DNA of 34,914 nt from a virus, in the IMG/VR virus record IMGVR_UViG_3300010354_009973, positions 1 to 34,914 of that record; one strand, 5' to 3'. Both the position numbers and the translations under genes were made by a program. Positions 6,747 through 34,262 of the stretch are shown here, piece by piece. Below the pieces are notes generated by a model. It saw only the letters and a program-made list of their open reading frames with translations. It made no database searches and had not been told where the DNA came from. The first letter of the stretch is position 1; every line of letters starts with the position of its first letter.

Positions 6747-7312
6747 TAAGAGAAAGTTCCTACATGTTTTACAAACATATTGTCTCCGCCATCGAGTGTA
6801 CTAACTTCAAAAATATGTGTTACATCTACTACTAGTCCTGTACTAAAAGGAAGAGTTAAAGATGCTTCTTTTCTAGTTACACCTCCAGGTGACGATGAAG
6901 TAAAATTCACAGTAAAATCAATTTCTGTGCTTGTTGTGTTTATATGTAAAAATATTTTTCGATATAAATTATCAGCTGGCCATTGACTTAAAGTAAGATT
7001 AGTATTACCAGTGCAGCTAACTTTGAATAGGTCTGCATCTCTGGTGTCTAATATAACATCCCCAGAAACTCCAGGTTGAACATCTACAGAATGATATAAT
7101 CTTCTAATTTCAGCATTTCCGATAATTACTCCATTGAAGTCATTATCATCATTTGTTTTTGCAGTATTGTTTTCTAAATTGGTAATTTCAGTTCTTGCGG
7201 TAGATAATGCGTTTTTTATGATATTAAAATTATCTCTAAAACCTTGACTATTATTATCTTTTCCTGCGGTCGGAAATTCTTCGTCGATTGTGTTAAAAAC
7301 TATTGAGCTCAT
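6746..7312 (-). CDS. Virion structural protein with KVN-NF-type anchor, 188 aa
   Basis: The N-terminus has NNSQGFRDNFNIIKNALSTA, a divergent form of the 'R.AF.KVN.NF..L' segment seen in three other structural proteins here. A short coiled coil (TARTEITNLENN) and a beta-rich domain follow. It overlaps the 861-residue gene upstream by four bases (ATGA). Probably a baseplate or fibre component; no specific family is recognised. Confidence 0.75.
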   Translation of the reverse strand: MSSIVFNTIDEEFPTAGKDNNSQGFRDNFNIIKNALSTARTEITNLENNTAKTNDDNDFNGVIIGNAEIRRLYHSVDVQPGVSGDVILDTRDADLFKVSCTGNTNLTLSQWPADNLYRKIFLHINTTSTEIDFTVNFTSSSPGGVTRKEASLTLPFSTGLVVDVTHIFEVSTLDGGDNMFVKHVGTFS

Positions 7313-9894
7313 GATATTGTGGTCCTGTCATTTCTAAATGCAATATATTTATCTTTGCTATATCCGGTAACTGCATCTATGATATATCTATCAATAGTAT
7401 AATCAATTTGGCTAAAATCGAATCCACTATTTTTAATACTCAATAATAGGTCAGAGGATTTTCCAGGTTTACAATAACAAATAGGAATAGCAGTAATATA
7501 TCCAAGAGGTTGTACTTGCCCAGGTTGAATACTACGCATCCATAATGGCAAATAATTACTATCTATCAATCCTAATTCTCGAATTCTTTTGCGCCAAATT
7601 GAAATGCTACTGGCAAATTTTAATGAAGTTTCTGGATCGCTGGCATACACGTCTGATCTATCTACAGTAGCTAAAAAAGGATTGGCCCTTGAAAAACTAG
7701 GAGTGTTTTGATCAAACGGCCCTGCATAAAATTGATTGTTTTGATCTACCGTAATTAATCTAGATTGCTTTGAAGTTACTACCGGAGTAGGCAAATATTT
7801 TTTTCCTATTTCTAAAGGATCAAACACTTCTATATAAACAACTTCGTAAACAATAGTATCGGTGTACGGTATTGTAGCTATTGCATTTTTAACTGATCCT
7901 AACTTGAATCTTTTAGGTTTATGATTTCGGCCAGTCATACCTACAACTTCTGCTGCTGTTTTGGTTTCAATACCAGCATATACTAACATTTTTAAATCTT
8001 TTTGTATACCAAAATTTAAATCGCTAGGTCTATAAATTAAATTATTTTCAAAAATATCAGGATTATTAATAAAAGTTTTCCAAGCATTTCTTTGATCTGT
8101 TTTTAAGAATGGCTTTACAATTAAATTACTGAATAATCTATCGTTAGGAGTATCGATATTAATAGTGAACACTCGTCTAACAGCACTATACCCTAGCACA
8201 TCTCTTGCTTCTACTTCGAAAGAGTATGATCTATCGACGGTAGTTTCTCCGTCGTCAAAAGTTAATGCGCCGCCGTCAAATAGTATTAACCCTGGAGTAT
8301 TGTCGATTTCAAACTGATTTACTTTACCTACTATTTCACCGTCAAAATTTAATGTTAATCCTGGAGGTAATTGTCCACTAATTAAAAAGTATAAAACTGG
8401 CGATTGTGTGAAAGTAGTAGTTGCACTAATACTTAAAGTGCTTACATAGTTAGCACCAATTGATCCTAGATTGCTATCAGTATTCCATACTATAGTAGAA
8501 TCAATTTCTCCAATTATTCTAGCAGTAAATATTCTCTTACTACTAGCAGTTTCACCTTTCTCTGTAAACCTTGTAGCCTTGATAGTAAATTTATAATCTT
8601 TAGTAATTGCAGTCTGATAAGGTAATACACCAAATACTTCGCTGGTAGTTGGGTCAAACAACATTCCTGGTGGAAGCACACTATCTGTACCTAAGTACAG
8701 ATTAGTAAAATTTGGAATATTACTAGTAAAGCTACCTACAATAGTTAATAGATAATCTGTTTCTGATAATTTTGTTACACTAGAAATTGTATAAACTGTG
8801 GCACTAGCATTTTCGACGTATTCTGAAAGTTGTATTTTATGTCCTACTAATGGAATTCCTTTTACATTTTTTAGTCTTAGTTTGTTTGTACCAATTTTGT
8901 TTTCTGCCATACTAGTAGTGTAAGACACGCCAAAAATTTCAGGATTAACACTTTCTAAAGAATATACAATTGGTCCTACAACAAGAGCTTCATAAGTATC
9001 TAATTTAAATGTTTTATAATTATTAGCTCTAAAAGTTCCTAAGAAATTAGGAGTTGTCCAAATTGGTGCTCTTGCATAGGTAATATCTGCTGTAAATGTA
9101 TTATTGCCAGCAGTGGTTACAGTATTATCTGCCCTGAAGAAATCATCTCCTACTACAAAGATTCTAAATTTTCTTGCAGTTTGACTGTCACCATCGGTTA
9201 CTATTACGTTGAATTCAAAATTTCTATTTAATTTTTTTGGAGGTAAGCTTTCAGTTCCAAAATCAAAAGTTAATAAATCAAAAATAAAACTGTCGTAACC
9301 ATTAGTAGGTCTTAATCCATAATCGTAAGCATATTCGTCAAATAGTTGTTTGTCAAATCTGCCATTGCCTTTAGCTAAGGGAGGAGCTAATACTGGTTGT
9401 ACCCATCCAACAATTCGTCCGCTATCTGTTAAAATTAAACCAGGGGGTAGTTCTCCACCACCACTAGGAATAAAATATTTTAATTCTTGACCAGCAGCGG
9501 TATCTGTATCTATTACAGATAGTTGAAAATCTATATACGAACTGTCTAAAATATAGTATGCGTCATTAGGCCCTATAGGAAGAGCACCTGCTGCGGTGTT
9601 CCATTCTGGAATATCTGCACCGGTGACATTAATAAAGAAAGTTCTATCAGAAAACTCTGTACCTAATCTGGCTCTAACTACAAATTTAAATTCTGTATCC
9701 CTTGGTACTTCGAAAGCAGTTCCTACTATCAAGGAATTTTCTAATCTTAAACCAGGAGGTAATTGACCAGAAATAATATTATATTCGATTCCTGGTCCTA
9801 GTGGGCTTTTTAACGGTAAAGAAATACTGACAATGGTTCTTTCTGGTATGGTACCAAAACTATAACCTGATCTTTCAGTCCAAATATCTAACAT
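7309..9894 (-). CDS. Virion structural protein with Ig-like (LPPGL) repeats, 861 aa
   Basis: Several copies of a putative-Ig (He_PIG-like) element are visible: SGQLPPGLRLENSLIVGTAF near residue 45, GGELPPGLILTDSGRIVGWV near 148, SVLPPGMLFDPTTSEVFGVL near 408, and SGQLPPGLTLNFDGEIVGKV near 509. Such repeats form beta-sandwiches in adhesins. The last 250 residues (about 590-861) lack the repeat and probably form a different domain that anchors or trims the fibre. The ATG at 9894 follows AGGATTATCTA, which lies in a hairpin arm. The perfect late box TATAAATA is 21 bases upstream. It heads the late unit 9894-6516. The exact virion location is unknown. Confidence 0.85.
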   Translation of the reverse strand: MLDIWTERSGYSFGTIPERTIVSISLPLKSPLGPGIEYNIISGQLPPGLRLENSLIVGTAFEVPRDTEFKFVVRARLGTEFSDRTFFINVTGADIPEWNTAAGALPIGPNDAYYILDSSYIDFQLSVIDTDTAAGQELKYFIPSGGGELPPGLILTDSGRIVGWVQPVLAPPLAKGNGRFDKQLFDEYAYDYGLRPTNGYDSFIFDLLTFDFGTESLPPKKLNRNFEFNVIVTDGDSQTARKFRIFVVGDDFFRADNTVTTAGNNTFTADITYARAPIWTTPNFLGTFRANNYKTFKLDTYEALVVGPIVYSLESVNPEIFGVSYTTSMAENKIGTNKLRLKNVKGIPLVGHKIQLSEYVENASATVYTISSVTKLSETDYLLTIVGSFTSNIPNFTNLYLGTDSVLPPGMLFDPTTSEVFGVLPYQTAITKDYKFTIKATRFTEKGETASSKRIFTARIIGEIDSTIVWNTDSNLGSIGANYVSTLSISATTTFTQSPVLYFLISGQLPPGLTLNFDGEIVGKVNQFEIDNTPGLILFDGGALTFDDGETTVDRSYSFEVEARDVLGYSAVRRVFTINIDTPNDRLFSNLIVKPFLKTDQRNAWKTFINNPDIFENNLIYRPSDLNFGIQKDLKMLVYAGIETKTAAEVVGMTGRNHKPKRFKLGSVKNAIATIPYTDTIVYEVVYIEVFDPLEIGKKYLPTPVVTSKQSRLITVDQNNQFYAGPFDQNTPSFSRANPFLATVDRSDVYASDPETSLKFASSISIWRKRIRELGLIDSNYLPLWMRSIQPGQVQPLGYITAIPICYCKPGKSSDLLLSIKNSGFDFSQIDYTIDRYIIDAVTGYSKDKYIAFRNDRTTIS

Positions 9895-9896
9895 TA

Positions 9897-9930
9897 GATA
9901 ATCCTATTATTACATATTTATAGGATTATC
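9897..9930 (-). promoter_or_regulatory. RBS-hiding hairpin around a late promoter
   Basis: GATAATCCTAT (9897-9907) and ATAGGATTATC (9920-9930) form a perfect 11-bp inverted repeat with a 12-base loop. In minus-strand RNA the 3' arm contains AGGA, the ribosome-binding site of the 861-residue gene. The late promoter overlaps the 5' arm. A late transcript starting near 9908 lacks the 5' arm and leaves the site free; read-through RNA would mask it. Confidence 0.75.
9915..9922 (-). promoter_or_regulatory. T4-type late promoter TATAAATA
   Basis: A perfect match to the T4 late -10 box on the minus strand, 21 bases before the ATG at 9894. Predicted +1 is near 9908. No sigma70 -35 is needed for this class, which is read by the gp55 late sigma with the sliding clamp. 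Confidence 0.8.
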
Positions 9931-26814: not shown

Positions 26815-27147
26815 TTAATATTCCGATGGAGCGAAGCTTGATCCGCATCCGCAAGTAGTTTCTGCATTTGGATTTTTAATAACAAAAGAAGATCCATGTA
26901 TATCTTCTTTATAATCAACTTCTGCTCCTTGAACGTATTGAAAGCTCATAGAATCAACGATCACTTTAACACCATGAGATTCTATAGAAAAATCGTCTTC
27001 GTTTTCTATTTCATCTAATGTAAAACCATATTGAAATCCAGAACACCCTCCACCTTGAACGAACATTCTAAGTTTTAGGTCTGGGTTGCCTTCTTCTTCG
27101 CATACTTCTTTAATCTTGTTAGCAGCAGATTCTGAGATTATAAGCAT
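26815..27147 (-). CDS. A-type Fe-S cluster carrier (ErpA/IscA/HesB-like)
   Basis: This 110-residue protein matches the HesB/IscA family, which carries or inserts Fe-S clusters. The three ligand cysteines are present: C35 in [10 protein letters not shown], and C99/C101 in [10 protein letters not shown]. The length is typical. Marine T4-like phages often carry one, possibly to load phage or host Fe-S enzymes or a baseplate spike. The start, ribosome-binding site and late promoter are enclosed in a 10-bp inverted repeat (27146-27186). It heads the late unit leading into the giant fibre gene 13 bases downstream, so it is probably made with virion proteins. Confidence 0.95.
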
Positions 27148-27186
27148 AAAATCCTCTTCGATGTAATATTTATCAAAGGATTTTAT
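27146..27186 (-). promoter_or_regulatory. RBS- and start-hiding hairpin around the erpA late promoter
   Basis: ATAAAATCCT (27146-27155) and AGGATTTTAT (27177-27186) form a perfect 10-bp inverted repeat. In minus-strand RNA the 3' arm carries AGGA and the first two bases of the start codon. The 5' arm lies upstream of the late promoter at 27167-27174, so late mRNA starting near 27160 cannot form the stem. Confidence 0.75.
27167..27174 (-). promoter_or_regulatory. Late promoter GATAAATA (erpA and fibre unit)
   Basis: GATAAATA on the minus strand, 20 bases before the erpA ATG, in the loop of the 27146-27186 inverted repeat. It is the only clear promoter before the 26.8-12.0 kb fibre block. Confidence 0.75.
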
Positions 27187-28933: not shown

Positions 28934-28962
28934 ATTATAAACATATCAACGCCAGTTGTCAA
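28934..28962 (-). promoter_or_regulatory. Consensus sigma70 promoter for uvsE
   Basis: TTGACA (28962-28957), 17 bases, TATAAT (28939-28934) on the minus strand match the consensus at all twelve positions. Six bases separate the -10 box from the ATG. The spacer contains the stop codon of the glycosyltransferase gene. Confidence 0.88.
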
Positions 28963-29644
28963 CGATAATTGGGTCTTGTACGTCCGAAGGTTTTGGTTCA
29001 CCATGAAATACCAACACTTTGGTTCTAGGATCGATTTTTGGATTTTCAATTGATCTAAAAATACGTTTGTTATCTAATCTTACAATATCTGCTTTGTTTC
29101 TAATTTCCCACTTATAACTTTGAATCCATTCATCTGGCCAAAAGGAAAAGTTATGTTTAATTTGAGAAAATATCCAGTCTTGATCTCCATGCATTCTTTT
29201 TACAACATCTTTTTCTTTTAAAAAGTTTTCCCATACATACGAGTGACTGCCTTTTTCTAGTTTAAAAATACTACTATTAAACTTATTCCAATTTTTTACA
29301 GTACTACGATTAAAATCTCTTATGATACAAAATTGACTATTATTATAATTCCATAATTCATCGATTGAATTTATAACAACAACATCTAAATCAAAGAAAA
29401 GAATAGATCCAGATAATGGTAGTTCATTACTGAATACCCAAGTTTTATACCACCATCCTGACAAGTTTAAATGAATAGGGATAGGAATAACTTTAATTTT
29501 TTCATTTAAACCGCTAGGATTTTCAGTAATACAGGCAAAGTTAAAGTTAACTGTACTATTTCTTCTAACCATATTGTACAGTTTGTTTACATAATCAGAA
29601 CTATACTTGTCTCCGTGTTTTAGACAAACTATCCATTTATCCAT
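28946..29644 (-). CDS. Glycosyltransferase-like protein with DxD motif
   Basis: This 232-residue protein looks like a GT-A glycosyltransferase. ILFFDLDVVV at residues 81-90 holds the DLD metal/nucleotide-sugar motif. GDQDWIFSQI (about 153-162) and VLVFHGEPKPSD near the C-terminus are typical of GT8-like enzymes. The donor and acceptor are unknown; a phage surface, DNA or host LPS target is possible. The ATG lies eight bases inside the kdsA end, with GAGG before it. Its neighbours kdsA, the QueD-like gene and the DUF115-like gene suggest an envelope-sugar cluster. Confidence 0.75.
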   Translation of the reverse strand: MDKWIVCLKHGDKYSSDYVNKLYNMVRRNSTVNFNFACITENPSGLNEKIKVIPIPIHLNLSGWWYKTWVFSNELPLSGSILFFDLDVVVINSIDELWNYNNSQFCIIRDFNRSTVKNWNKFNSSIFKLEKGSHSYVWENFLKEKDVVKRMHGDQDWIFSQIKHNFSFWPDEWIQSYKWEIRNKADIVRLDNKRIFRSIENPKIDPRTKVLVFHGEPKPSDVQDPIIVDNWR

Positions 29645-30455
29645 TAACTGCCTCGTAAACTTTTTTTATGCTTTCTAATAAAGCACTTAATTCACTTAAT
29701 GGAATCATATTAGGACCATCGCTAGGAGCGGAATCTGGATTCTCATGTGTTTCTATAAAAACTGCATTTACACAACCAGTAGCTATAGCCGCCCTCGCCA
29801 AGTATGGGACCATTGATCTATCTCCACCTGAGCTTGTTCCCATTCCTCCAGGCTGTTGTACACTGTGAGTACAATCAAAGACCACGGGATAACCAGAACG
29901 TTCCATAATAGGTAGACTACGCATGTCAACCACAAGATTATTGTATCCATGTGTTACTCCTCTTTCACATAACATAATACGATTATTACCAGTACTGGCT
30001 ATTTTTTCAGCAGCTTTACTGATATCGTTCGGAGCCATAAATTGGCCTTTTTTAATATTAACAGCAAGGCCTGTTTCTCCTGCTGCTAATAATAGGTCTG
30101 TCTGTCTGGAAAGAAAAGCTGGAATTTGTAGAACATCGATATTTGCTTCTTTGCAAAGTCTAGCTTGTTCGGGATGATGTATGTCCGTGAGTGTGGCTAC
30201 ATTTAAGTTTTGCTTTACACCAAACATTACATCCAATCCTTCTTTAATACCTAGGCCACGTTTGGTGCTGATGCTAGTTCTATTAGCTTTATCGAAACTA
30301 CTTTTATAGATGAAGTTCATGCCTAGATTATCTGTAATTTGTTTTACAGTTTCGGCTATCATCAAAGCATGTTGTAGTGATTCAATTTGACATGGGCCAG
30401 CAATAACAGTTAATGGCTGTCCCTTGCCAACATAAAAATTAGATATCTTTATCAT
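29637..30455 (-). CDS. kdsA: 3-deoxy-8-phosphooctulonate (Kdo-8-P) synthase
   Basis: KdsA condenses phosphoenolpyruvate with arabinose 5-phosphate to make Kdo-8-phosphate, the first dedicated step to the inner-core LPS sugar Kdo. Clear signatures are VIAGPCQIE (C22), KSSFDKANRTS (51-61), ATLTDIHH, LQIPAFLSRQTDL, DCTHSVQ (H197) and FIETHENP...SDGPN (E235, D246). Its 272 residues are full length. The Cys/His/Glu/Asp set fits the metal-dependent class, not the Asn-type metal-independent enzyme. The ATG lies three bases after the queD-like stop, with a weak ribosome-binding site. A phage-borne copy could boost or reshape host LPS. Confidence 0.95.
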   Translation of the reverse strand: MIKISNFYVGKGQPLTVIAGPCQIESLQHALMIAETVKQITDNLGMNFIYKSSFDKANRTSISTKRGLGIKEGLDVMFGVKQNLNVATLTDIHHPEQARLCKEANIDVLQIPAFLSRQTDLLLAAGETGLAVNIKKGQFMAPNDISKAAEKIASTGNNRIMLCERGVTHGYNNLVVDMRSLPIMERSGYPVVFDCTHSVQQPGGMGTSSGGDRSMVPYLARAAIATGCVNAVFIETHENPDSAPSDGPNMIPLSELSALLESIKKVYEAVNG

Positions 30456-30457
30456 GA

Positions 30458-30961
30458 TTAATCAAACAACTCTTCATTCCATTCTCTGTGACCTTCTCTA
30501 AAAGCCATATTACTTTGTGTTTCGCGAACTTCTACACGATAACACCAAAGACGTTCAGCTTCGCTTGGTCCCCACATGTCTGGAATATAAACGCCATTGA
30601 CAAATTTATAAAGCTGATCGGCAAGCCCTTCGCATCCTAGACGAGGAAGTACTACTATCTTTGCCATTTTCTTTTCTTGTAACAGTTTAAATGTCTCTAG
30701 TTCAGGATCATCTTGTGCTACAATAAGTGTGTGATCGAATTGGTCTTCTAGAATCTTTTTAAGTTCTTTGAGACCACCGTAATCAGCTGCCCAATTACGT
30801 ACATCTAAATCATCTGTACCAAAATAAAACTTCATCGAAAAACTATAACCATGAATTAAATTACAGTGACTATCAGCACGCCATTGACGGTAGGCGCACG
30901 GAAAGGCATCGTGATATTCTTTTGTACTAGTATATTTGTAAATTTTTGTTGGGTAAGACAT
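30458..30961 (-). CDS. QueD-like 6-carboxytetrahydropterin synthase family protein
   Basis: This is a tunnelling-fold pterin-synthase-like protein of 167 residues. The segment RQWRADSHCNLIHGYSFSM (about 25-43) corresponds to the QueD 'C..LHGH.Y' region. VRNWAADYGGLKELK (about 54-68) and DQFDHTL match the next core elements. The third metal His is Tyr here (HGY), and the usual early 'AAH' His is absent, as I recall in a separate phage/alphaproteobacterial subgroup. QueD makes the precursor of 7-deazaguanines used in queuosine and in some phage DNA modifications. No queC, queE or folE is in this window. GGAGA precedes the ATG, and a sigma70 promoter lies at 31045-31074. Confidence 0.82.
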   Translation of the reverse strand: MSYPTKIYKYTSTKEYHDAFPCAYRQWRADSHCNLIHGYSFSMKFYFGTDDLDVRNWAADYGGLKELKKILEDQFDHTLIVAQDDPELETFKLLQEKKMAKIVVLPRLGCEGLADQLYKFVNGVYIPDMWGPSEAERLWCYRVEVRETQSNMAFREGHREWNEELFD

Positions 30962-31640: not shown

Positions 31641-32981
31641 TTAAGTTCTTGTAATTGCACCAAAGGGAGCCCAGATGCCAGGTGTTCCAGGAGTAATGCA
31701 TACCCAACCTATGTAGCTAGTTGGTTTAGGATCATCGTTCCATACAATGTCGCCTTTATTGTATTGACCAGATGAAGGATAGTTGGATCCAACTTCAAAT
31801 TTCTTTCTTTGGAAGCTGACAGGTCCATCTACAGTTAATTTTACACCTTCTTGAGGAGCAGATATTCCGATAGTTACATTTCCATATAAGTTTAAAGGTC
31901 TGCTTAAATTTTCATAATTTCCAATAACTATTTGATCTGATAATTCAAAATCTACTATATTAGAATTTTTAATAGAAAAGTTTTGTTGGAATGTAAGTTG
32001 ATGTTCGTCGATAACAAACCTTCCGACTTCTATTTGACTAGTACTAAGACGTCGTGTTATTGCAGCATCGCCCGCTACTTGTAATTCTGTTAATACACCT
32101 ACAGATGTTAAAGAGCTTGTTGTTATACCTGGACCAAGGGTGTTTCTATTTAAAACTACTCTTCCATCGATCATATATGATTTTTCTAAAGACAAATCTA
32201 ATGATTCAGTAGAATAAAATCTTTCTGGTTGTCCATGCAATACAAATTGTTTATTAGGCCCTTTTAATCCAGCCCACATCAATCCCTTGCCATAATTACT
32301 AACTGCTTCGGTTTCTTTGAAAATTAATAAACTTGTTTTTTCAGTGTGAATTTCGTCAGCAGTTAATCTACCATGAACTCTGACTTCGCCATTTCTATAA
32401 ACAGTAATTCTAGCTTTGTTATCTGTTACTATTTCAAGATGATTACTGGTCAGTGTACCGATAATACCTGTTTCTGCTTTTGAACTACCTATGCCTAAAT
32501 CAACACCGTTTTCTCTGATTCCTAATGCTAGCTGTGGACTGTCATTATTAATTCCTATTTTGTTTTGATCGCTACTTACATAAAAGAATTCTCCAAATTC
32601 TCCATTGCCGGAAACTTTTAATGACTTTAGTGTGCCGACAGTTTTTAAATTACTCTTTACAACAGTGCTTCCTAACTCGTATAAAGACAAGACTGTGGTG
32701 TTTGAAATTTTATAATTCTGATCTTCGTTTAAATCGATAGATAAATCAGAATATATACTTTCTTTTTTGTATAGTAATCCTTTATTTTTTCTACCGTCAG
32801 TCCAAGTAAAACCTTTGTTTTCTAATTCAGAAAAACTGTTAGCCGTTATTTTAACAGCTGATGTTCCTTCCACATTAGCAACAGTAATTTTACCGTTGGT
32901 TACTAATAAGGTATCCTGTGTGGCTAAGTCGGAAATACCTTGACTGCGAAATTTAAGGGGTTCATAAACATTTAGGGCCAT
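31641..32981 (-). CDS. Tail-fibre-like structural protein, 446 aa
   Basis: The sequence is beta-rich with recurring fibre segments (VSSDQNKIGINNDSPQLALG, LKVSGNGEFGEFF, LQVAGDAAITRRLS, NLYGNVTIGISAP). Two halves each pass through a 'STxSLxLSLExSYMIDGR / SIYSDLSIDLNEDQNYKI' block, suggesting an internal duplication. The C-terminal tip ends SGQYNKGDIVWNDDPKP then GWVCITPGTPGIWAPFG, typical of phage fibre or spike ends. Its ATG lies inside a 13-bp stem that also surrounds a GATAAATA late promoter. It is followed by the DUF115-like gene. Virion position is unknown. Confidence 0.8.
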   Translation of the reverse strand: MALNVYEPLKFRSQGISDLATQDTLLVTNGKITVANVEGTSAVKITANSFSELENKGFTWTDGRKNKGLLYKKESIYSDLSIDLNEDQNYKISNTTVLSLYELGSTVVKSNLKTVGTLKSLKVSGNGEFGEFFYVSSDQNKIGINNDSPQLALGIRENGVDLGIGSSKAETGIIGTLTSNHLEIVTDNKARITVYRNGEVRVHGRLTADEIHTEKTSLLIFKETEAVSNYGKGLMWAGLKGPNKQFVLHGQPERFYSTESLDLSLEKSYMIDGRVVLNRNTLGPGITTSSLTSVGVLTELQVAGDAAITRRLSTSQIEVGRFVIDEHQLTFQQNFSIKNSNIVDFELSDQIVIGNYENLSRPLNLYGNVTIGISAPQEGVKLTVDGPVSFQRKKFEVGSNYPSSGQYNKGDIVWNDDPKPTSYIGWVCITPGTPGIWAPFGAITRT

Positions 32982-33019
32982 AGAAATACTCTCTTTTGAG
33001 TATTTATCTATGGCCCTAA
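32972..33019 (-). promoter_or_regulatory. Strong start-hiding hairpin around a late promoter
   Basis: Outer arms TTAGGGCCATAGA (32972-32984) and TCTATGGCCCTAA (33007-33019) are a perfect 13-bp inverted repeat. Inner arms AAATACTC (32984-32991) and GAGTATTT (32998-33005) extend the stem. In read-through RNA the start codon and part of the GAGAG site are paired. The late box 33001-33008 overlaps the 5' arms, so RNA begun near 32994 cannot form it. It may also stop or trim RNA from the gene ending at 33026. Confidence 0.8.
33001..33008 (-). promoter_or_regulatory. Late promoter GATAAATA (446-aa fibre gene)
   Basis: GATAAATA on the minus strand, 20 bases before the ATG at 32981, within the inverted repeat described at 32972-33019. 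Confidence 0.75.
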
Positions 33020-33025
33020 CTTAAC

Positions 33026-34204
33026 TTACTGTACTTTTAGTAGAATAGTTTCTTCGTTAATTCTGCCATTCATTTTAGTGTCAGTTGCTTTAATTTCGTC
33101 TAAGAACTTACGAAGTGCAACCTTACCTGCAGATTTAAAATCTTTTAGCTGATCCGCAGGTTTTCTTAGTGTTTTTTGAACACTAGACCCTTCGCTGAAA
33201 CCAGTAATTGTAGTACCTTTAACGCCGAGTTCATTAAACTCAGCAGCTACATATTTGCCTAATTTGCGAGTTTTAGTGTTGTAAACCCACAATTCTTTAG
33301 AACCAATAATATCAGCAGGATTGATACTAACCAATTTTAAAGGTTCATCTGACTTTTTATACTTGAGTTTAGCTACAATCTTGTCAGCAGGTACTACCTT
33401 CTTAGCACGAGGCTTACGATTAACTTTGCTTTCTTGCATGAGCATAGTACAAGCAGAATTGACTTCGTTGTAAAAGTCGATCAGTTTACGAATATGTTTT
33501 TTACTACGATGACTGTAAGCTTCGCGCAATTGCTCGTCAGCAGATCCGCTGGACAATTCTTCTAACTCAGCTAAATTGCCAGCATATTGATCTCTAATTA
33601 CACGAGCATGAGCAGCTTTGGCATCTTTACCTTTTAGCAAATTAAGTACCTTAAATGCTTTAGGTTCAAAAGATTCAGGATCCGTTTGCCAACTTTCAAT
33701 AGCTGACTCAATGTCTTCAGTCATACTCAGCGCAACTTCGCGCAGACGATCTTGAATACTAGGTTGTATAGTTGTTGTTTTAGCAGTATCTTGTGTTGCT
33801 TCTTCAACATTGAAGTCACCAGAATCAATAACCTTTTTTACTTCTGCTAACAACCATTCTGCTGTATTCTTACCATTGTTAAAATCAGCTCGCTGCTCGG
33901 GCATACCCCTCAGCAAACAGCTAGCCACAGTTCCCATAGTAAGATGACTGCGCCAATCTTTAGTACGCTTAAACGACGTTATAATGCTTTTGTCCACGCC
34001 TTTTTGTGTTAGCCATTTAATAACCTGCGGCTTCAGTTCTTTGCCGCCATATTCGGAACGGTAATACAACGAACTGTTATGAAAATGTGCGTAAAACTTG
34101 TCAATATCCCAGCTTTCGCTACCTTCCCAATTTGGGCTAGTATCACGTTTGGTTTTAGAAGTTGCGGATTTTACAACGACTTTTTTAGCTTTGACGCGAG
34201 CCAT
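33026..34204 (-). CDS. Conserved hypothetical protein, 392 aa, basic N-terminus
   Basis: The protein begins with a basic stretch (MARVKAKKVVVKSATSKTKR) and then a domain containing WDIDKFYAHFHNSSLYYRSE and VIKWLTQKG (about 28-70). A long charged helical middle follows, with a second basic patch (KVNRKPRAKKVVPADKIVAK, near 265). The C-terminal part contains ELWVYNTKTRKLGKYVA and KGTTITGFSEGSS. Nucleic-acid binding is plausible from the charge pattern, but no family is recognised. GGAG lies five bases before ATG 34204; an in-frame GTG six bases earlier lies on top of the Shine-Dalgarno and is rejected. A sigma70 promoter at 34233-34262 suggests early expression. Confidence 0.82.
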   Translation of the reverse strand: MARVKAKKVVVKSATSKTKRDTSPNWEGSESWDIDKFYAHFHNSSLYYRSEYGGKELKPQVIKWLTQKGVDKSIITSFKRTKDWRSHLTMGTVASCLLRGMPEQRADFNNGKNTAEWLLAEVKKVIDSGDFNVEEATQDTAKTTTIQPSIQDRLREVALSMTEDIESAIESWQTDPESFEPKAFKVLNLLKGKDAKAAHARVIRDQYAGNLAELEELSSGSADEQLREAYSHRSKKHIRKLIDFYNEVNSACTMLMQESKVNRKPRAKKVVPADKIVAKLKYKKSDEPLKLVSINPADIIGSKELWVYNTKTRKLGKYVAAEFNELGVKGTTITGFSEGSSVQKTLRKPADQLKDFKSAGKVALRKFLDEIKATDTKMNGRINEETILLKVQ

Positions 34205-34232: not shown

Positions 34233-34262
34233 ATTATAGCATAGCTGGATCTTTTTTGTCAA
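34233..34262 (-). promoter_or_regulatory. Sigma70 promoter with extended -10
   Basis: TTGACA (34262-34257), 18 bases and TATAAT (34238-34233), preceded by TGC (extended -10), lie on the minus strand. The -35 is in the coding end of the 74-residue gene, and its stop overlaps the -10. Predicted +1 is near 34226. Confidence 0.85.

Follow-up and report, generated by a model that had tools for sequence, protein, structure and literature searches.

A probable T4 gene-e-type late-expression switch at the fibre gene of an uncultured T4-like phage

The lysozyme gene of phage T4, gene e, carries an early/late hairpin (McPheeters et al. 1986, reviewed in PMC3014915) which represses it approximately 100-fold (PMC3014915, PMC2988022). 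T4 soc, 49 and I-TevI share with gene e an arrangement in which the start site is buried in the longer early RNAs, and late promoters beside or inside the hairpin produce an RNA without its 5' strand (PMC3014915, PMC2988022). Here we describe a site that is very probably a switch of this type in a viral DNA fragment of 34,914 nucleotides (IMG/VR record IMGVR_UViG_3300010354_009973, analysed over its whole length and hereafter called the window), for which a nucleotide search for matching isolates gave no match. The mechanism is already known; what is new is its probable occurrence at the fibre gene of an uncultured T4-like phage.

The likeness to gene e has three parts: an early read-through RNA hides the Shine-Dalgarno sequence and AUG (here by fold prediction), the RNA from a late promoter located in the structure's 5' strand lacks that strand, and an early gene lies shortly upstream (nudE at 37 nt in T4, P0002 at 44 nt here). 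Unlike gene e, the target here is fibre-like and the stem is longer (13 + 7 bp), reaching codon 4; the approximately 100-fold repression is known in T4, whereas here we infer repression from sequence alone. T4 soc, 49, I-TevI and segB and Aeh1 mobE are also late genes in early units, with a sequestered start site and a late promoter within or beside the hairpin (PMC3014915, PMC2988022). However, those are capsid decoration, nuclease and homing-endonuclease genes, whereas our case is a P0002-to-fibre junction that uncultured phages have rebuilt with different stems. Cyanophages share the late-promoter octamer, reported as NATAAATA, and a gp55 homologue, but masking hairpins are not mentioned at their NATAAATA promoters in the excerpted text of the review (PMC2984593).

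The features of the locus, in the order in which an early polymerase would meet them, are as follows:

34233–34262, minus strand: early sigma70-like promoter, TTGACA-18-TATAAT with an extended -10 TG, matching the consensus at 12 of 12 positions
33026–34204, minus strand: upstream early gene P0002 (phrog_11903 by profile match, function unknown), found in all related contigs searched
32972–33019, minus strand: switch hairpin with a 13-bp outer stem, 2-nt bulge, 7-bp inner stem and 6-nt loop (inverted-repeat search and fold)
33007–33019, minus strand: 5' outer arm, present only in the read-through RNA (fold and 5'-end scan)
33001–33008, minus strand: T4-type late promoter GATAAATA (motif, and strand skew in relatives)
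32998–33004, minus strand: 5' inner arm, largely the promoter's own sequence and missing from the late RNA (fold)
32995, minus strand: predicted late transcription start, the sixth base past the octamer (T4 late promoter geometry and spacing mode)
32985–32991, minus strand: 3' inner arm, overlapping the Shine-Dalgarno sequence GAGAG at 32993–32989 (sequence and fold)
32972–32984, minus strand: 3' outer arm, containing the end of the leader, the ATG and codons 2–3 (fold and orthologue comparison)
31641–32981, minus strand: putatively masked late gene P0001, a fibre-like virion protein of 446 aa (phrog_6002, phrog_23059, phrog_2617)

A PDB search found no relative of P0001. Downstream of it, at 28946–30961, QueD-like, weakly DAHP-aldolase-like and glycosyltransferase-like genes stand in a row.

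Read from 33019 to 32972 on the minus strand, the hairpin is UUAGGGCCAUAGAUAAAUACUC-AAAAGA-GAGUAUUUCUAUGGCCCUAA, where dashes mark the loop. Positions 33019–33007 pair with 32984–32972 to make the outer stem, 33006–33005 form the bulge, and 33004–32998 pair with 32991–32985 to make the inner stem. The ATG (32981–32979) lies within the outer stem, and the octamer (33008–33001) runs from the outer stem's inner end across the bulge into the inner stem. An earlier note on this DNA had claimed inverted repeats around the late promoter with the ATG in the outer stem, and both the search and the fold recovered them, with outer and inner stems of 13 and 7 bp. Its statement that the arm extends into codons 1–4 holds for codons 1–3, but only the first base of codon 4, where the 3' arm ends, is included. 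The minimum free energy of a 101-nt RNA covering the site is -32.2 kcal/mol, compared to -13.4 ± 3.1 kcal/mol in 200 dinucleotide shuffles (z = -6.0), none of which was as stable.

The predicted cost of opening the start region depends strongly on where the RNA begins. In a 5'-end scan it was 20.5–21.6 kcal/mol for RNAs beginning between 33045 and 33018, 7.8 kcal/mol for a 5' end at 33009, 2.2 kcal/mol for 5' ends at 32997–32995 and approximately 2 kcal/mol over 32997–32993; the late leader, computed from the assumed start point, folds at just -1.0 kcal/mol. The earlier note had a late RNA, starting near 32994, that lacks both 5' arms, and the model agrees: the predicted start at approximately 32995 is past both, and opening cost falls from 21 to 2 kcal/mol. 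We defined a switch index as the opening cost of the read-through RNA minus that of the late RNA, and computed it in a survey of 149 NATAAATA sites that precede ORFs in the window, T4 and 20 related contigs. The fibre-gene site ranked third of the 149 with an index of 19.1 kcal/mol, above T4 gene e (14.9 kcal/mol), and the survey recovered the known T4 cases e, 49, I-TevII and segB, which served as a positive control.

Short stems are common in AT-rich leaders, so one could ask whether chance or base composition produced this one. We found nothing strong in favour of that reading and give it virtually no probability: it is refuted computationally by the z-score, by shuffling the 40 nt upstream of the promoter alone (0/60 shuffles reached the native masking), by conservation over diverged relatives, and by the specificity of arm swaps in other gene groups (described below).

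Both promoters have support beyond the window. Upstream of P0002, all 21 relatives tested have a sigma70-like promoter with 11–12 of 12 consensus matches, and no terminator-like site was called between P0002 and the fibre gene. The early sigma70 unit proposed in the earlier note is thus a credible prediction, its promoter being strong and conserved and nothing resembling a terminator standing before the hairpin. In relatives, GATAAATA occurs 48 times in sense and 3 times in antisense orientation just ahead of genes with 150 or more codons, and most control octamers have a much lower frequency and a weaker strand skew. T4 late promoters start transcription approximately one helical turn downstream of their 8-bp TATA box (PMC2988020). 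The octamer-to-ATG distance in relatives has one mode at 5 nt, which would place +1 on the A of the ATG, and the assumed late start point fits this. The window is a fragment without the late-sigma region, so the late sigma was scored from the close relative G002, whose fibre protein is 93% identical to the window's and which has a gp55-type late sigma gene (phrog_12791, E 2e-80); at this search sensitivity, G001, G036 and G039 gave no late sigma match.

The relatives are uncultured contigs, some of them near-duplicates, and are not phylogenetically independent. P0002 is present in every checked contig that bears a fibre-gene relative, and wherever a late fibre gene sits directly behind it in the same direction, a hairpin surrounds GATAAATA at all sampled junctions. 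The stem is nearly that of the window in L002, L005–L008, L030, L153 and L160, shares only the core in L032, L034, L148, L155 and L157, and is unrelated in sequence in L031, L033, L037, the L040 group and G014. One class counts against the pattern: L032/L034-type stems derive mostly from the promoter core, which itself provides the 5' arm, so that shuffling the sequence upstream gives nearly as strong a result. We rejected the idea that unrelated genes stand behind P0002, since 7/7 scanned genes match the same fibre-like PHROGs. The stems are therefore best viewed as rewritten versions at one locus and not as wholly independent origins. In isolated phages with P0002 homologues (PA5oct, phiM12, Cr30, BUCT-ZZ01 and DLP6), other genes adjoin P0002, and the one isolate junction that was folded, that of PA5oct, has no strong promoter hairpin.

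Two groups of relatives have additional structures. In L037, L038 and L043, the promoter hairpin is second to a terminator-like one, GGGCGATTATGTCGCCC, which has a T-rich tail, making two barriers in series. In L040, L041, L045 and L047–L049, the hairpin is approximately 17 bp, its 3' arm lies in codons 7–13 and the start codon is in the loop; the late mRNA of this group is predicted to be leaderless.

These junctions bear on whether the hairpin simply ends or stabilises the early P0002 transcript, with start-codon masking incidental. It begins 6 nt past the P0002 stop codon, and a 20-bp stem can slow exonucleases. However, it does not combine a GC-rich stem with a T-run as an intrinsic terminator does (no T-run follows the stem), the 3' arm consistently extends as far as the start codon, and the L037 group has its separate terminator-like hairpin besides the promoter hairpin. 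Furthermore, where a convergent gene faces P0002, no promoter hairpin follows P0002: the octamer itself is absent there in L028, L036, L039, L042, L044, L054, L055, L057 and G003. We consider this reading improbable and rejected it. That the hairpin is an RNase III-type site at which early and late messages are cut apart is extremely improbable in our judgement: the approximately 20 bp in total, with a bulge, would suit such an enzyme, but junction stems in many relatives are only 10–14 bp, and cleavage would leave unexplained why the 3' arm follows the ATG.

In the fibre orthologues of G003 and G009/G010, an inserted gene facing the opposite way precedes the fibre gene; the late promoter is kept, but the strong stem is gone. 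The G003 orthologue (L004) folds at -3.6 kcal/mol, compared to -16 to -29 kcal/mol in other orthologues, and overall the strong stem is present in 9/9 orthologues versus 0/2 lineages with the opposite-facing insert (p 0.018).

An arm-swap test joins one relative's upstream arm to another's leader and computes the opening cost. We applied it to three groups of other late genes (those encoding an MLxxW N-terminus, those behind a 196-aa ORF, and the L031/L033 pair), where own combinations cost 12–24 kcal/mol to open and unrelated foreign arms mostly 2–10 kcal/mol, with one at 14.7 kcal/mol. In these groups, the conserved property is complementarity rather than sequence. This matters for a reading in which the inverted repeat acts at the late promoter as DNA, forming either a protein operator (I-TevI autorepression may be compared) or a cruciform. 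The closeness of the repeat's centre to the promoter speaks for it. Homologues of other late genes swap the stem sequence completely while keeping complementarity, which excludes a fixed operator sequence; in addition, the position of the 3' arm follows that of the start codon, and where read-through is impossible the stem is lost though the promoter stays. We therefore rejected this highly improbable reading too.

Among the window's nine close fibre orthologues, arms are largely interchangeable in the arm-swap test. Pair counting found 98.2% of cells paired, versus 33–52% when the arms were slid, but covariation was modest: 36/500 shuffles reached the observed score, and one pair was changed on both sides. 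Since these orthologues are too conserved for covariation to be decisive, we used the arm-swap and neighbour-context tests. The coding sequence carries a signal of its own, in agreement with the earlier note's claim that it is constrained by RNA structure. At synonymous sites, codon 2 is GCC in 9/9 orthologues, while 0/12 later invariant fourfold-type residues keep a single codon, and codon 3 (CTA or TTA) retains a G-C, G-U or A-U pair in 9/9.

Across all late promoters, the hairpin's link to gene orientation is a weak trend. Strong sites, above 8 kcal/mol, number 17/72 in co-directional versus 2/40 in divergent context (p 0.016), with equal medians, and sites with z ≤ -3 number 14/53 versus 3/32 (p 0.09).

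Other late promoters in the window also lie in stems. At 9922 (minus strand), TATAAATA is in an 8-bp hairpin, GATAATCC/GGATTATC, ahead of an 861-aa gene (7309–9894); the stems of its homologues in G022 and G029 are entirely different in sequence yet complementary. At 27174 (minus strand), GATAAATA is in a smaller stem, AAAATCC/GGATTTT, ahead of an Fe-S-biogenesis-like gene (26815–27147), and G016, G017 and G019 have related stems. The ORF neighbouring the 27174 site faces away despite the stem, which counts against the switch explanation.

Spacing between NATAAATA and the ATG of long ORFs in the 20 related contigs and the window (loci L063–L142) is sharply bimodal: non-redundant sites number 56 at 4–8 nt, 1 at 9–14 nt and 92 at 15–34 nt, with none at 0–3 nt or 35–44 nt. 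Scrambled octamers showed no such gap, and T4 has no site below 12 nt. From sequence, this bimodality predicts that many late mRNAs of this T4-like group are leaderless, those of virion structural genes among them; a literature search found no description of this.

At the fibre-gene site, the late promoter lies in the hairpin's 5' strand, the start site is paired in the folded read-through RNA, the late RNA is computed to be unable to form the hairpin, and the sequence has a co-directional early promoter upstream with no terminator between. T4 e, soc, 49 and I-TevI have the same anatomy, so we file the case with those, under the known mechanism. The anatomy, conserved complementarity and two promoter sequences are supported by computation. 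Under the proposed mechanism, early polymerase would start at 34262–34233, transcribe P0002 and continue into the fibre gene. The read-through RNA would fold into the 20-bp hairpin, burying the Shine-Dalgarno sequence and AUG, so we propose that there is no early fibre synthesis. Polymerase with a gp55-type late sigma would later start at GATAAATA within the hairpin, and the resulting RNA, beginning in the loop without either 5' arm, would be translated. RNA made too early thus probably folds and hides the fibre start signal, while late RNA does not. From the arrangement as a whole we infer early expression, early read-through, the late start point, translational repression and a need to block early translation; avoidance of wasted synthesis or of premature assembly is a plausible reason for making no early fibre.

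A broader role is doubtful: the hairpin might serve generally to insulate junctions between early and late genes, re-evolving quickly and also guarding predicted leaderless late genes (the L037, L040 and G014 types). As hiding a Shine-Dalgarno sequence would be pointless at leaderless genes, its main role would then be to keep ribosomes from re-initiating on the fibre gene once they have completed the early one.

A gene-e-type switch at this site extends the T4 lysozyme mechanism to fibre genes of uncultured T4-like phages. It also supplies natural variants, i.e., rewritten stems with complementarity kept and lineages which lost the stem once early read-through became impossible, so that the few T4 cases become a testable comparative rule. 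It also yields a rule for annotation: a late gene whose promoter lies in an inverted repeat and directly follows an early gene is to be marked as translationally masked.
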